Part shown: positions 8,662 through 33,638 of the stretch, piece by piece
How the letters are laid out: each line of letters starts with the position of its first letter
Numbering within the stretch: position 1 is the stretch's first letter
Assembly (NCBI GenBank): GCA_021817735.1
Contig: JAKAFX010000007.1
Location: 1-39,310, forward strand
Length of the DNA stretch: 39,310 nucleotides
Reading direction: 5' to 3'
Origin: Thermoplasmata archaeon
GTDB taxonomy: Archaea; Thermoplasmatota; Thermoplasmata; Thermoplasmatales; Thermoplasmataceae
Made by a program: the position numbers and the translations under genes
The notes under the pieces: generated by a model
What the model saw: the letters and a program-made list of their open reading frames with translations, nothing else
The model's database searches: none
What the model was told of the DNA's origin: nothing

Positions 8662-9015
8662 TCAGCCAAGAAACCAGGAGCGAGTCACATCATCTCTCAG
8701 CGGTGAAAGGAAGAATATGGTACTTTCTCCGATGTCAATGTTGTACTTTATCGAGAATTCGGCCTCAACCCTTCCTCCAAGGATGATTTCATGAGACTTC
8801 TTGAACCTGGCCCAAGATGGATCAGAGGGCTTGAGTATAACACCTATGAAAAACGGGGTATCAGATGCAACAAACGTGTTCCCCAGCAAAACGCTTGAGT
8901 TTTTTGATTCGGGAAATATGAGTCTTATCGTCACCTGTGGTAATTTCCAGGGATATGAAAAAGGTTCCACATTTGTGGCATAAACGGGGGGAAACCATAG
9001 TTCATCTTGAGCCAA
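8662..9015 (-). CDS. Hypothetical protein, possibly truncated at its N-terminus by the adjacent mobile element
   Basis: 117-aa ORF, open frame continues upstream to the repeat boundary at 9039; no family recognised. Confidence 0.45.
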   Translation of the reverse strand: MAQDELWFPPVYATNVEPFSYPWKLPQVTIRLIFPESKNSSVLLGNTFVASDTPFFIGVILKPSDPSWARFKKSHEIILGGRVEAEFSIKYNIDIGESTIFFLSPLRDDVTRSWFLG

Positions 9016-9038
9016 GGACGCCCGTATGCATTCAGGCA

Positions 9039-9467
9039 GCTATGCCGATATTGTTCTGCTGGAAATATCACATTCTTTTTTCTTGTCGACTCAGTAGTTT
9101 ACCGCATGGAATAGAAGTTCATACTGTTATACCCATTTTGGCATTACGGAATGATGTAATATGGGTATTACTGCTAGGAAAGAGATAAGGGCGAATGGTG
9201 CTGTGTACTACAAAGCATACGATGTGAAGCGTGTGAATGGAGAAGTTGTTCAGAAGTAATGGGATATATCGGCAAGTCACCCAACTCCACCAAGGAGATT
9301 GAACCCGGTGTCTTATTGCGCCATGTGGAAAAACTGGTGAAAAAAACAATGAGCTGGGAGGATATCAACAGTATACTGAAGAAGATGGGCACAGAATACG
9401 GTGCATGGCCTATCACCAGGATTATAATTAATCTCGCAAACTGTCCAGAGACGCGTGAAACATTTCA
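9039..9467 (+). repeat. 429-bp direct repeat, copy A (5' part of an IS transposase)
   Basis: Same sequence as 12853-13281 by reading; encoded ORFs in the track are identical between copies over the shared part (76 aa and 80 aa minus-strand ORFs; MGYIGKSPNSTKEIE... plus strand). Confidence 0.95.
9129..9168 (+). promoter_or_regulatory. Inverted repeat overlapping the transposase start codon: ATACCCAT-6nt-ATTAC-8nt-GTAAT-ATGGGTAT
   Basis: 8 bp + 5 bp perfect complementary arms with a 6-nt bulge; the right arm contains the ATG of MGITARKEIRANG. Present again at 12943-12982. Confidence 0.6.
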
Positions 9468-9812
9468 ACACCTGCCAATATACATGTTCCAGAGTTTGAT
9501 CTTTCCATCCCAGGAACTTATGTTTCAGGGTCAGGGGATACTTCAGAGCTGAATGCAAAGGCCTCAATGGTACAAAGGATAGATCTGTTAGGCGACATAA
9601 GTTTCTCACACAGAGCATAAGGCAAAATATCCAGGATCAGATCAATTGTGGAACATTTACATACGTTCATGAATAGGATGTTCCACTTTGCTCATGTCAC
9701 GATGATTAACAGTGCAGAGGGTAAGAGTAAAGACATACTTCACGCAATATGCTACAACATGATGAGGTCGCGCTATCTGGATCGGGTAGCGCGAGATATG
9801 GACATTTTTTAA
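9161..9812 (+). pseudogene. Decayed IS transposase (frameshift after VVQK; later fragments VPEFDLSIPGTYVSGSGDTSELNAKASMVQRIDLLGDISFSHRA and EHLHTFMNRMFHFAHVTMINS...)
   Basis: N-terminal transposase-like reading in two frames joined at TAATG; downstream transposase-like peptides interrupted by stops. Confidence 0.65.
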
Positions 9813-10264
9813 GGAAAAAAGGGAAAATACAGGTAAAACACCCATTATACAAGTAAAATAATTCGAATTAGGTCAATTTCTCAGTAAGATTGCCATTGAT
9901 CTAGGTATATTCTTAGGTTATGGGAAAACCTACCATGCTCTAACAAAACGGGGGGGGGTCGTGAAAAAGGTTATGATGTAGGTTTTTTGAAATCCTCAAT
10001 AATGGCAAATAGTCCAAGTACCTGTGAAACAACGGACAAACTACCCCTGAAAGCACTGTTCCGCATACTTCAGACTCTACTTTCAGCTGGAACAAATGGT
10101 CCCTTTCGACACATGAAAGAGCGGAGTCAAATGCCGGAGAATCTAAAATTGGGGTAGGAGTATGAATTGGCGAAACGGAACCCGAGGATAGGAATCATAA
10201 TGCGTCCTTCAAATTTTCCAATGGACTACTGCATTACATTACGTTAACGCACGGGCGAGGGTAT

Positions 10265-10972
10265 CTACGCCCCATGACCCGCGATTACTTCAAAGCTAAA
10301 GTAGAAACTAACTGGAGTGATGTTCTCGAGCACCCTGTATATGCCATATTCTTCGTATGTCAAGATGTTGAATGACAATGTATATGAATAGTTGCCTATT
10401 TGCGGGGTAAAAGAAAGGTTACCGTTATCCGACAGTACCACCGGATCGAAGTATTGAATTATTATGCTCTGGGGGTTTCCTGATGAGTTGTAATCTACAT
10501 TCATCTGTGGTCCTTTCAGTGGAAGTCCTTCAGTCGCATTCGAATTTCCGGTGAGATAGATATTATTGATAGAAGTTGAAAGTGCGCCATGAAATTCGGC
10601 ATAGGCACTTCCCTCTAAACATATCATAGAATAGATAAACAGCATAGTTGAGGATTTACTGACGCTTGGATTTCCTATATTGTGAAAGTTAGAAAGATTC
10701 ACGGTTCTGCAGAAATCATCGAAGGGAACATAGTACTCGGTAAAGTAGGTCAGACTTATCCCAGATACGTTTATGTGGATCACGCGAAAATCGAAATTAG
10801 CATTGGCATGTCCATCAATGTACCCAGACTTAATATGGCTTAAGTAAGAGTTTCTTGTAGTCATCAATGAGTACGATGCTGGAATATTAGTGAATACTGC
10901 AGGCAGTATCACGATCATCGCGACAGCCACCACAATGAACGAAAACAATTTCTTCTTTCTTCGTGGGATCAT
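10265..10972 (-). CDS. Secreted or membrane-anchored hypothetical protein (235 aa)
   Basis: N-terminal MIPRRKKKLFSFIVVAVAMIVILPAVF signal/anchor; at least seven NxS/T sequons; starts 6 nt after the stop of the 609-aa gene, after GTGAGGAAAA. Confidence 0.75.
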   Translation of the reverse strand: MIPRRKKKLFSFIVVAVAMIVILPAVFTNIPASYSLMTTRNSYLSHIKSGYIDGHANANFDFRVIHINVSGISLTYFTEYYVPFDDFCRTVNLSNFHNIGNPSVSKSSTMLFIYSMICLEGSAYAEFHGALSTSINNIYLTGNSNATEGLPLKGPQMNVDYNSSGNPQSIIIQYFDPVVLSDNGNLSFTPQIGNYSYTLSFNILTYEEYGIYRVLENITPVSFYFSFEVIAGHGA

Positions 10973-10978
10973 TTTTCC

Positions 10979-12808
10979 TCACGAAACAGCTATGCCTATG
11001 GGTTCAAAGATCGTAAATCCCATTGTTGGGTAATTGTTACTGCTATCATACGGATAAGCAGCTTCTATATAATAATGGGAGGAGTATCCCAAATATTCAA
11101 GTACCGCGTTATTGGAATTATAGCTGCTTCCTGGACCATATCTGAACCCTATTTGTGCCTGAAAGGAAAACAAGTACACAGGTTTGTAACTTGGCCAGTA
11201 CCACGGGCCGTACTGATCGTTTAAGTATGTGAAGCCATTATCTCCAAACAAAGCACTGCTAGCATTGCCACCTGAATAAATCGTGTTAGTACTCGTTCCC
11301 CAAGAATAAGGCCCAGGGCTTTGAAAGAATATTGGCCCAAAGGCCGCCATGGCGATGGCGGCAGGTATTGTATCGGGATTGGTTGCGAAAGCAGCAGCCA
11401 TGGCGTAATAAAGCGACTCAGCATATGGCTGTCCGCTCCAGGAACCGTTATTTACCGCCTGCCATGATGCACTATTAAAATTCGTATCTAGCATATCTAA
11501 AGATGAACTATCGCCGATCGAATCCCCCCACCAATAGAACTTTTGTTCATAAGCCGATACCCAGTAATACTGCTTTGAAGGTTGCCCAAATCCCGTGGTA
11601 AATGTCATGAAATCTGATACAGATTGAGGCTCAGAAGTATTTGGGCCAGAGGCAACTTGCTCTACCACATCCCCGATGTATGACTGATCTGGAGTAAAAA
11701 CCTGGTAGTAAGTATATGTATCTGGCGGGTTAGATATCTGATTATTCCCATAACTTATTGGCATTGCGGTGAATATATTGATTGGATAACTTGGAAAACT
11801 AGAGTAGGCAACTCCATCGCCTTCAGGGCTCGAGGCTGCGAATCCGAGGTACGAGCCTGGTCGTGAACTCCAAGTAATAGATGCCGTAGAAATCCCGTAG
11901 ACCTCTTCAGACCCAATAAACGCTAAAGTATGGCTCTGGGAGACTATATAGAAATCAACTGTTGCTGAATAGTACCCCCCCATGCTTCCGATCTGAGCCT
12001 TCACTGTTATTGGGGTGTAAGCAGAAAATGTAGTTACTGTTGGCGAGCCTGTATATTCGTAATCAACACTACTTATTGAAACAGGCGTTGGCCCTCCTCC
12101 CCCTCCACATCCGCATATAACCATCAGCGGCTTCAGAACGGGATCAATGAAATACGAGGAATGACTGGATAATAATACAGGCCCGAAAGAGAGAGCAATT
12201 CTATTCCCAGATAAGGATGAGTTCAAGAGACCGTCTTCGAAAATAGGATACTGTGTCCTCCATGAAAGTTGGCTCGTTGAGTCACTTATTCTCCATACAT
12301 AGTTACTGATTGGAACAGGTCTGTTATAAACGCCGATAGCGTTCGTGTTCAGTTCAGAGTTTATGAATCCATGTTCAACAACATAATTGCTGTGTGGTTC
12401 ATTGATTGAATATATGGCGACAATCGTTCTGTTATTGGAATTATTGTTTTGAATTGAAAGGCTCATATCTAACTTATTTCCGTTTAGTGAATATATTTCA
12501 CCAACATCGAATCCATCTCCGAGAAGTTCAAGCCCAACTGTGTTCTGGACGGCATCGTTTTTCCTGACTATCTTCCGAAACATGAAATGGACTCTAACTA
12601 ATTTACCTTCATTTAGCTGGTAAAGATTCCACTGCTGTTCATAGTATAGGCCATTGGAGTAGATAGATGCTTTTCCTCCGTTAAAAAATATTCTAAAATT
12701 GCCGAGCGTGGTGTCATTTTTTGCCCCTGGTTGATGCGCATAAGAAAGTGATGGAACCGCTATTAATATCATTGAGAGGAATAAAATTACTATCGCCTTT
12801 CCATTCAT
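10979..12808 (-). CDS. Large secreted hypothetical protein (609 aa)
   Basis: Signal peptide MNGKAIVILFLSMILIAVPSLSYA; Tyr/Ser/Asn/Trp-rich extracellular-type composition; CGCGGGGGPTP linker separating two parts; own TATA box upstream. Confidence 0.78.
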   Translation of the reverse strand: MNGKAIVILFLSMILIAVPSLSYAHQPGAKNDTTLGNFRIFFNGGKASIYSNGLYYEQQWNLYQLNEGKLVRVHFMFRKIVRKNDAVQNTVGLELLGDGFDVGEIYSLNGNKLDMSLSIQNNNSNNRTIVAIYSINEPHSNYVVEHGFINSELNTNAIGVYNRPVPISNYVWRISDSTSQLSWRTQYPIFEDGLLNSSLSGNRIALSFGPVLLSSHSSYFIDPVLKPLMVICGCGGGGGPTPVSISSVDYEYTGSPTVTTFSAYTPITVKAQIGSMGGYYSATVDFYIVSQSHTLAFIGSEEVYGISTASITWSSRPGSYLGFAASSPEGDGVAYSSFPSYPINIFTAMPISYGNNQISNPPDTYTYYQVFTPDQSYIGDVVEQVASGPNTSEPQSVSDFMTFTTGFGQPSKQYYWVSAYEQKFYWWGDSIGDSSSLDMLDTNFNSASWQAVNNGSWSGQPYAESLYYAMAAAFATNPDTIPAAIAMAAFGPIFFQSPGPYSWGTSTNTIYSGGNASSALFGDNGFTYLNDQYGPWYWPSYKPVYLFSFQAQIGFRYGPGSSYNSNNAVLEYLGYSSHYYIEAAYPYDSSNNYPTMGFTIFEPIGIAVS

Positions 12809-12828
12809 AATGAAACTAACATTTCTCT

Positions 12829-12836
12829 TATATAAA
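12829..12836 (-). promoter_or_regulatory. Candidate TATA box (TTTATATA on minus strand) for the secreted-protein operon
   Basis: Located 21 bp upstream of the ATG at 12808, consistent with a leaderless archaeal transcript; lies inside the cassette, 17 bp from repeat B. Confidence 0.5.
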
Positions 12837-12852
12837 TCATTTTTGTTTTATC

Positions 12853-13281
12853 GCTATGCCGATATTGTTCTGCTGGAAATATCACATTCTTTTTTCTTGT
12901 CGACTCAGTAGTTTACCGCATGGAATAGAAGTTCATACTGTTATACCCATTTTGGCATTACGGAATGATGTAATATGGGTATTACTGCTAGGAAAGAGAT
13001 AAGGGCGAATGGTGCTGTGTACTACAAAGCATACGATGTGAAGCGTGTGAATGGAGAAGTTGTTCAGAAGTAATGGGATATATCGGCAAGTCACCCAACT
13101 CCACCAAGGAGATTGAACCCGGTGTCTTATTGCGCCATGTGGAAAAACTGGTGAAAAAAACAATGAGCTGGGAGGATATCAACAGTATACTGAAGAAGAT
13201 GGGCACAGAATACGGTGCATGGCCTATCACCAGGATTATAATTAATCTCGCAAACTGTCCAGAGACGCGTGAAACATTTCA
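12853..13281 (+). repeat. 429-bp direct repeat, copy B
   Basis: See copy A; divergence begins after GAAACATTTCA in both copies. Confidence 0.95.
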
Positions 13282-13733
13282 CATGAAAGGTGCAGAATTT
13301 TCTTGGGTGAGCTAAAGGTATACCTTAACACAAGTATACCAAAACATTTAACCCATGATGCAAAACTTGCGATAGGTCGTTATGACAAGAGGGAAACAAT
13401 GCTGCTCGCACAGAATCCTGAGGGCACGATACCGAGGACAAACAACATGGAGATATTCTTTAGGAAGTTGAGGAGGAACATGCGAAAGATATCCAGAAAT
13501 AATGCAACGGAGAAAATACTTGAAGAGAGTTGAGTCTAACTCGCACTCTTCCAGAATATATCCGATCCGGAATACAGAAAGATTGAGCCTGGCAATGCCG
13601 ATGTGAGAGCAGTTTTTTAAGGTATGGAAAACCATTCAAGAATAGACGAATGGCAAAGAAAAAGAAGATAGAGCTTGTTGATAATAAAACAAATAAACTC
13701 CATAGTGGTAATGCACCTCATATCCTATATTGA
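12975..13733 (+). pseudogene. Chimeric decayed transposase: copy B 5' part joined to the C-terminal remnant of a different transposase
   Basis: Downstream of the repeat: KVYLNTSIPKHLTHDAKLAIGRYDKRETMLLAQNPEGTIPRTNNMEIFFRKLRRNMRKISRNNATEKILEES, then FQN-like and KKKKIELVDNKTNKL debris, with stops and frameshifts. Confidence 0.6.
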
Positions 13734-13847
13734 ATAATAGGAAGGAAACAATATATCGATTAGGAGAAAATACTAGAAATAACAGTTACTGATGGGCATA
13801 GTCAGGCAGCCAAAACTTATATTAAAAGGCTAAATGTCCCGGAACAG

Positions 13848-30953: not shown

Positions 30954-33638
30954 ATGATTTCTTTCACCGATCAGACCTCTGAAGAGATTAAGAATTCCTG
31001 GGGGGTCATTTTCTCAAGATTCGGATATGACGAGAAGATTAATGCCATTAGGGAATTGTATCCTGAGAGGAGATCAATCTACATATCCTACAGGGATATT
31101 GCTGACTACAGCAACGATTTTGCTGACAGCCTTCTCACTTCTCCAGAAGAATTCCTCGCTTTGGGTCAAGAAGTTATTACAGCTGACTGGCCTCCATTCA
31201 AGAGATCGGATTCCAAGAGGGTCAACATAAGGTTAAGTGATCTTCCTGAAAATGAAATAAGGGTTGATATCCGTGAAATTAGGGCCCAGCACATTGGCAA
31301 ACTCATCAGCATCACAGGAATCATTAGAAAGAATACCGAGGTCCTTCCAAGGCTTCAGAATGCTGCTTTCCAATGCTCCCAGTGCAGCCATGTGAACATG
31401 GTTTCACAGGTTAGGGGAAGAGTGGAAGAACCAGTTATCTGTGAGGCGTGCGAGGCTGAAAGGCCGAAGGTAAGGTTCAAGTTACTGCCAAACGAGTCTG
31501 AATTTGTGGACATAGAGAAGATTGAAATACAGGAGAACCCGGAGACCATTGAGGGAGGTGCACAGCCCCAGAGGATAACGGTCATCGTGGAAGATGACCT
31601 TACAGGAAATCTCTTTCCAGGAGACCGCGTGACTGTGCAGGGGATCCTTGTATCCGAGCAGAAGAAGACGGGCAATGTTCCCCTCACCGAATTCAACATT
31701 TACGTATATGGAAACAACTACTACAAGGACAACAGGGAAATTGGCGACGTGGAAATAAGGCCAGAAGACGAAAGAGAAATTATCGCACTTTCGAAGCTGC
31801 CGGATATCTTCGATAGGTTTGTCCAGTCAATTGCGCCAACAATATACAACTACGAAGTGATCAAGAAGGCCCTTGTCCTCCAGATGTTTGGAGGACTACG
31901 AAAGACAATGAAGGACGGTACTGCCATGAGGGGGGATATCCACATTTTCCTGATAGGCGATCCAGGTACCGCAAAATCACAGCTTCTCCGATACATGACG
32001 GAGATTTCACCGAGGGGAGTTTTTGCTTTCGGCAAGGGTTCCAGTGCTGCTGGTCTCACTGCCGCAGCAGTGAGGGATGATTTCGGTGAGGGCAGGTGGA
32101 CTCTGGAAGCAGGGGTACTTGTTCTTGCAAATGATGGCCTGGCAGCAATAGATGAACTTGACAAGATGGATCCGGGCGATGTATCATCCATGCACGAGGC
32201 AATGGAACAGCAGTCTTTCCACAGGGATTCCGTAATTGAGGTAGACGGAGAGCAGGTGAAAATAGGTCCCTTTGTAGATACACTAATAGAAACCCATGGA
32301 GACCGTGTGAAGGAAGGCATCGACTGCGAGGTGCTTGAACTCCGTGGGCACAGGATACTATCATCAGACCTGAACCAATGCATCGAGGAAGACATCGTAC
32401 AGGTAAGCAGGCACCTGGCTCCGAGTTACATGCTGCGGATTTTCCTTCAGGACGGGCGAAACGTATGCGTTACGGAGAACCATCCTGTATGGGTGTTGAA
32501 AGAAGGGCGCGTAACAAGCATCCCCGCAGGGAAAGTCGCACCAGGAGACATGGTTCCAGCTGTTGCAATTATTCAGTCCAAAATTGATTCAACCGGAATG
32601 CTTGCAGAAAGAGGACCGGGATATGCGAGCTCACAAACCTCTCTGGAGATGGAAGAGCACTATGATACCATAGCTTTTCTCCCAATACACAGGATCGAGA
32701 CTGAAGAGTATGCAGGAAAATGGGTGTATGATGTTGGGGTGAACAGGACCAGAACAATAGTCACTGGCGGGATAGCGATACACAATTCCATAACAATTTC
32801 CAAGGCAGGGATTATGGCAACGCTGAAATCGAGATGTTCGGTGCTTGCAGCAGGAAACCCAAAATTTGGTCGCTATGATCCTTCCTTGATGCTAATAGAC
32901 CAGACCTGGCTTCCGCTTCCGCTACTCTCGAGGTTTGACGTTATATTCAGGGTGGTAGATGAGCCACAGGTCAGCAAGGACACGAAGCTGGCTGATCACA
33001 TACTTAATGCGCATCGTGTGGGAGAGATCTACAGAAAAGGTGAAGTTGAAAGGAAAGACGTGGAAGAGCAGAACGAAGATGACCTGAACTATATCCCAAG
33101 GATTCCAAAGGAGACCGTCAGGAAATACGTTTCCTATGCCAGGAGTAAGATCTTCCCGGTTATGACCCAGGAAGCAATAGACAAGATCAGGAACTACTAT
33201 GTTAAGGTCAGGAACAACTCAAACGAGAGGATGAGAATAACTGCAAGGCAATTAGAATCTGTTATCAGGCTCTCAGAAGCGAATGCAAGGGTCAGGCTCT
33301 CGGGAACGGTAACTGCAGCAGATGCGGATCAGGCAATATCAATAATCAAGCATTACCTTTCCGAGGTAGCAACTGACAGCGAGGGCAAAGTGGACGCAGA
33401 CATAATCAATACCGGCATCTCAAACAAGCAGCGTGGAGAGATGGAACAGATTTTCATGATGATAAAGACTCTGTGCTCCAAGGATCAGAAAGACGGGGTT
33501 GCGGATTCGAGCGAACTTGAGGCGGAGGCAAAGTCAAAGGGGATAAGTGAACTGAAGGTCAGATCCATCGTGGACAAGCTCAAGGCCCAGGGAATGATAT
33601 ATGAGACCTCATCTGGCAAGCTCAAGGCGATCACCTGA
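30954..33638 (+). CDS. mcm: MCM replicative helicase, interrupted by an intein
   Basis: LIGDPGTAKSQLLRY (Walker A), LAAIDELDKM (Walker B), LLSRFDVIF (Arg finger). Confidence 0.97.
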   Translation: MISFTDQTSEEIKNSWGVIFSRFGYDEKINAIRELYPERRSIYISYRDIADYSNDFADSLLTSPEEFLALGQEVITADWPPFKRSDSKRVNIRLSDLPENEIRVDIREIRAQHIGKLISITGIIRKNTEVLPRLQNAAFQCSQCSHVNMVSQVRGRVEEPVICEACEAERPKVRFKLLPNESEFVDIEKIEIQENPETIEGGAQPQRITVIVEDDLTGNLFPGDRVTVQGILVSEQKKTGNVPLTEFNIYVYGNNYYKDNREIGDVEIRPEDEREIIALSKLPDIFDRFVQSIAPTIYNYEVIKKALVLQMFGGLRKTMKDGTAMRGDIHIFLIGDPGTAKSQLLRYMTEISPRGVFAFGKGSSAAGLTAAAVRDDFGEGRWTLEAGVLVLANDGLAAIDELDKMDPGDVSSMHEAMEQQSFHRDSVIEVDGEQVKIGPFVDTLIETHGDRVKEGIDCEVLELRGHRILSSDLNQCIEEDIVQVSRHLAPSYMLRIFLQDGRNVCVTENHPVWVLKEGRVTSIPAGKVAPGDMVPAVAIIQSKIDSTGMLAERGPGYASSQTSLEMEEHYDTIAFLPIHRIETEEYAGKWVYDVGVNRTRTIVTGGIAIHNSITISKAGIMATLKSRCSVLAAGNPKFGRYDPSLMLIDQTWLPLPLLSRFDVIFRVVDEPQVSKDTKLADHILNAHRVGEIYRKGEVERKDVEEQNEDDLNYIPRIPKETVRKYVSYARSKIFPVMTQEAIDKIRNYYVKVRNNSNERMRITARQLESVIRLSEANARVRLSGTVTAADADQAISIIKHYLSEVATDSEGKVDADIINTGISNKQRGEMEQIFMMIKTLCSKDQKDGVADSSELEAEAKSKGISELKVRSIVDKLKAQGMIYETSSGKLKAIT
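32214..32786 (+). other. Mini-intein (191 aa, Ser1, C-terminal HN, +1 Ser) within MCM
   Basis: Host MEQQ|SITISKAGIMATL is split by SFHRDSVIEVDGE...VCVTENHPVWV...KWVYDVGVNRTRTIVTGGIAIHN; block B TxxH and terminal HN|S present; too short for a LAGLIDADG endonuclease. Confidence 0.93.

Follow-up and report, generated by a model that had tools for sequence, protein, structure and literature searches.

A putative secreted-protein operon within a probable decayed composite-transposon-type insertion in a Thermoplasmata archaeon

Introduction

The window analysed here, a stretch of 39,310 nucleotides from a Thermoplasmata archaeon, contains two identical 429-bp direct repeats that bracket a two-gene operon. 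This arrangement raises the question of how the operon came to lie between the repeats, and whether it is still mobile. The initial annotation, made from the sequence by eye, considered composite-element capture or integration of a circle, and also suggested a reversible cassette and an undescribed mobile module. We compared the repeats, their flanks and the intervening DNA with 76 other genomes of the family, which are designated by G numbers below.

Results

The repeats are fused relics of two insertion sequences

Base-by-base comparison of 9039-9467 with 12853-13281 revealed 429 identical bases out of 429 at a spacing of 3814 bp, and divergence was abrupt at both ends, which bears out the original observation. 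The host assembly, a 1.38-Mb draft in 99 contigs, contains only these two copies. The biological start of the repeat is 9040/12854, where an insertion sequence that we call IS-A begins (CTATGCC); the preceding G at 9039/12853 is a chance match and, in the left copy, is the final base of a target duplication. On the right, the repeat stops precisely at the CA that terminates an inverted repeat of IS3 type, the outer end of a second element, IS-C. Each copy is a fused relic comprising the left end of IS-A and a 49-bp IS-C terminal repeat; beyond it, the left copy runs into a relic of a third element, IS-B, and the right copy into the remainder of IS-A. The unusual repeat is explained by nested IS decay rather than by a new element, and the IS debris suspected between the repeats is real and was assigned to IS types. 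A MITE was also considered for the repeat and rejected, its ends coming from two different IS families and neither copy having a duplication of its own.

The left end of IS-A, with the frameshifted start of its first ORF, occupies 9040-9428 on the forward strand and is 66-77% identical to IS-A of G012, G004, G011, G018, G015 and G006. An identical second copy at 12854-13242 is the start of a complete but internally deleted element, the right part of which (13282-13801, forward strand) comprises a transposase C-terminal pseudogene and the right terminus and is 73-77% identical to IS-A of G004 and G012. Positions 88-390 of the repeat match the start of the 2.1-kb IS-A present in many family members, and 13303-13684 matches its end in the same genomes; the stretch 12854-13801 is one full-length, internally deleted IS-A derivative with both termini. 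IS-A encodes a DDE transposase, for which the matches to NCBIfam IS256 (E=1.5e-7) and Pfam MULE (E=0.0014) both lie below the cut-off. In G004 and G015, intact 2.1-kb copies begin and end in inverted repeats (CTATGG...) and are each flanked by a perfect 8-bp duplication of the target (TCACCGTA and CTTCTGTA); these two relatives combine the terminal inverted repeats with a target duplication in the 8-9 bp range typical of the IS256 family. The CTATG terminus is common to them and to the window element, and the right terminus of the latter, CTATGCCCATCAGTAACTGTTAT at 13801, is close to the right end of the G004 copy. With these comparisons, an archaeal IS of IS256/MULE-like type has both its ends and its target duplication defined.

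The IS-C terminal repeat lies at 9419-9467 (outer end 9467) and, in its second copy, at 13233-13281, both on the forward strand, and shares 80-86% identity with the ends of 1390-bp IS3 elements from G031, G029, G008 and G025; full-length IS-C is found in G031 and G029. These relatives carry IS3-type orfA/orfB and TG...CA inverted repeats, and their orfB, scored as a partial sequence, falls just under the NCBIfam IS3 cut-off. Only this single type of 49-bp end, and no other part of IS-C, is present in the window. About 10 bp of it also belong to the region homologous to IS-A. This junction (9419-9432) falls within a short stretch, GGATTATAATTAA, that both elements share, as if a deletion between short homologies had joined them.

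IS-B is represented by its right part, an IS5-type transposase relic at 9468-9935 (forward strand; 67-73% identity to IS-B in G021, G032, G003, G010 and G029), and by an inverted left-end fragment at 9957-9997 (reverse strand; 81-83% identity to the 5' ends in G021 and G010). Its left truncation falls exactly at the IS-C end (9467/9468), and its right terminus, at about 9935, is degenerate, the IS-B termini being placed approximately. An intact relative matched NCBIfam transpos_IS5_4.

The insertion extends beyond the right repeat

The block 9040-13801 begins and ends in IS-A termini (CTATGCC...GGCATAG), reading CTATGCCGATATT at 9040 with its reverse counterpart at 13801. Directly outside both termini lies the same 8-mer, TCAGGCAG, at 9032-9039 and at 13802-13809; the chance of an exact 8-mer match at two fixed positions is about 1.8e-5. 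In the genus-mate G001 (contig C29) both flanks are joined, with about 36 unaligned bases against 4.8 kb in the window, at an empty site that is diverged and in which the 8-mer itself is not conserved. Given the IS-A ends, the flanking duplication and the joined flanks in G001, the whole of 9040-13801 is an insertion. The repeats do lie where the initial annotation had placed them, but the right limit of 13281 proposed for the cassette does not hold, as the element continues to 13801. The insertion site has a small reverse-strand ORF (8662-9015) on one side and a Zn-ribbon/EF-1-beta/glycosyltransferase cluster on the other. No further copy of the complete unit was found at a second site in the 77 genomes of the family, and the 4.2-kb unit had no match in plasmid records.

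The cargo is an operon with an orthologue elsewhere

The operon is encoded on the reverse strand and has all the parts initially ascribed to it, namely two genes, signal peptides and its own TATA box. Gene 1 (10979-12808) encodes a 609-aa secreted protein with a signal peptide and a 79% identical orthologue in G002, and gene 2 (10265-10972) a 235-aa secreted or anchored protein with a 68% identical orthologue in the same genome. A TATA-box-like sequence at about 12828-12836 is centred about 24 bp upstream of the start codon, a spacing that fits a leaderless archaeal transcript. Calculated against G002, where dS is near saturation, dN/dS is about 0.09 for gene 1 and about 0.11 for gene 2; values this near 0.1 indicate that both genes are under purifying selection. 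As promoter and coding sequence have been kept, the operon is predicted to be probably expressed. Between the repeats lie just the two ORFs of the operon and relics of IS; no integrase or replication gene was found there.

In G002 the orthologues are adjacent and in the same order, at a different chromosomal locus and with no such repeats. G001 has a distant (27%) homologue of the large protein, followed by a short secreted gene of its own, between methyltransferase and GTPase genes. Distant homologues are scattered through the family and expanded in parts of it. G090 contains at least five paralogues of the large protein (including L122, L129, L132 and L133), a lineage-specific expansion. A Cys-x-Cys-Gly5 motif (CGCGGGGG, CACGGGGG) is common to the large proteins, even between the 27%-identical copies (L018 and L016; 10979-12808 in the window).

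Neither operon protein matched Pfam or NCBIfam, or any solved structure in the PDB by sequence, and the large protein had no match in viral contigs. AlphaFold, run on a two-sequence alignment, gave an unusable model (mean pLDDT 28). From the signal peptides, the operon would encode a putative pair of secreted or surface proteins.

Discussion

A decayed composite-transposon-type insertion is the probable origin

The block 9040-13801 probably arose as an insertion of the composite-transposon type, which carried a resident operon, was later trimmed at an IS-C end and has decayed. Two direct copies of an internally deleted IS-A, already bearing the IS-C end, would have flanked the resident two-gene operon. 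An IS-A transposase, acting in trans or before the decay, would then have used the outermost IS-A termini and joined the unit to the intergenic TCAGGCAG, duplicating it. The termini and the duplication are present in the window, and we infer from them that the unit moved as one. The left IS-A copy would subsequently have lost its right part by a deletion running from the exact IS-C end into IS-B; the junction of this deletion is seen in the sequence, and an IS-C-linked mechanism may have produced it.

The outer termini, the target duplication, their counterparts in the intact IS-A copies of G004 and G015, the empty site, the full-length right arm, the identities of the relics, the displaced operon and the purifying selection on both its genes argue for this origin, and composite-element capture is the part of the initial proposal that the IS-A termini at both outer ends, the 8-bp duplication and the empty site in G001 support. 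Of the hallmarks of a composite transposon, the block exhibits two IS copies around a cargo (9040-9428, incomplete, and 12854-13801), outer termini bracketed by a target duplication and a target that is empty in a relative, G001; the unit at another site and a functional transposase in an arm were not found. Given that the transposase in the arms is broken by a frameshift, an internal deletion and stops, the block is at most a defunct composite transposon. No intact transposase and no recombinase lies within 9040-13801, and the source of transposase was not seen, as no intact IS-A, IS-B or IS-C was found in the 85%-complete host assembly. This missing source speaks against the composite reading, as do the lack of an inner terminus on the left arm and the end of the repeat at the IS-C terminus, which neither transposase alone explains. 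The composite reading is nevertheless the most economical, and its order of events is tentative.

IS256-family composite transposons, such as Tn4001, consist of two IS copies that flank a cargo and generate an 8-bp target duplication. The block resembles them in its two IS copies around a cargo, its 8-bp duplication and a transposase with a weak IS256 match. In contrast to them, its arms are direct, internally deleted and devoid of a working transposase, the left arm lacks an inner end, and the cargo is a resident archaeal operon rather than resistance. IS3-family elements give rise to adjacent deletions, and the left arm likewise stops at the exact end of an IS3-type terminus, beyond which the DNA is unrelated. 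However, just 49 bp of that element survive in the window, so that an IS-C-linked deletion would have depended on a transposase supplied in trans or on a copy that was once intact. In the pseudo-compound transposons and translocatable units of IS6/IS26, recombination between direct IS copies releases a circle with one IS copy (PMC7986276). The cargo between direct IS copies, the outer 8-bp duplication and the conceivable release of a circle are common to the window and these units, whereas the IS in the window is IS256/MULE-like, with no active transposase and no evidence of circles. In the part of the literature searched, composite transposons had no direct precedent from Thermoplasmata, which is a weak negative.

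Alternative origins and present mobility

The chief rival to a composite insertion would produce the same final sequence. A lone IS-A derivative (now 12854-13801) may have been inserted first at TCAGGCAG, and operon DNA carrying the same 429-bp relic integrated later; we regard this order as possible but unlikely. In the later step, itself similarly tentative, a circle or other DNA would have entered by single crossover, or by gene conversion, inside the relic. Taking out 3814 bp does leave a single coherent IS-A derivative, complete with its two termini and the target duplication. The repeats are identical, and their extent, which begins at an end of IS-A and stops at an end of IS-C, fits neither IS by itself, as expected if homology rather than transposition set the limits. 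Because the left arm has no inner terminus, a unit that transposed as a whole looks no different from a resident IS-A that received the operon afterwards. The donor, however, would need the same relic, including its internal deletion junction, which occurs nowhere else in the assembly or in the 76 other family genomes, and neither a free circle nor a replication gene was seen. The other mechanism put forward initially, in which a 3814-bp circle integrates by a single crossover, is possible but requires more assumptions than composite capture.

It is possible, though improbable, that the loop 9468-12852 was misthreaded through the repeat by the assembler and really lies elsewhere or forms a free circle, with a single IS-A relic at the locus. 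The window comes from a fragmented draft, the two related operon-bearing assemblies have SPAdes-style contig names and are probably short-read, and an exact repeat of 429 bp approaches or exceeds what read pairs usually resolve. The outer context, in contrast, is right, since the outer flanks agree with the synteny of G001 and carry the matched target duplication.

Under either origin, the operon could be lost by recombination between the two repeats. We nevertheless consider it very doubtful that the repeats act as a natural on/off switch, in which homologous recombination would excise the operon as a 3814-bp circle and leave populations mixed for a surface trait; at present the repeats are no more than passive substrates on which homologous recombination could act. 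Least credible of all is a surface cassette that is reversible and selectable, being gained and lost through the repeats. An intact operon under selection does lie between identical direct repeats, but these are IS relics, a dedicated recombinase was not found, and the relatives show no copies with flanking repeats.

The suggestion of an undescribed mobile module is not supported: the repeats are what is left of known IS types, whose transposases are broken here, neither a recombinase nor a replication gene was found, and the operon is an ordinary chromosomal one that occurs repeat-free at another locus in a sister species. A piece of DNA carried by decayed jumping genes is ordinary gene movement, and nothing shows present autonomous mobility. 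What the locus offers is a secreted-protein operon under purifying selection at a new position in a composite-transposon-type insertion, in uncultured acidophilic archaea.

Related assemblies and other features of the window

The related assemblies are the Thermoplasmata archaea DBS1-1.bin48 and FK3.bin88, and the host is grouped in the genus of the former. Over 10.3 kb, a contig of FK3.bin88 and the operon-bearing contig of DBS1-1.bin48 share 99.91% identity (L016/L017; G002 C5 and G024 C149); as FK3.bin88 is filed under another genus, its contig is probably mis-binned. Elsewhere in the window, the gene for the replicative helicase MCM (30954-33638) is interrupted in frame by an intein-like insert of about 180 aa, which shows a weak Intein_splicing match and apparently has no homing endonuclease.
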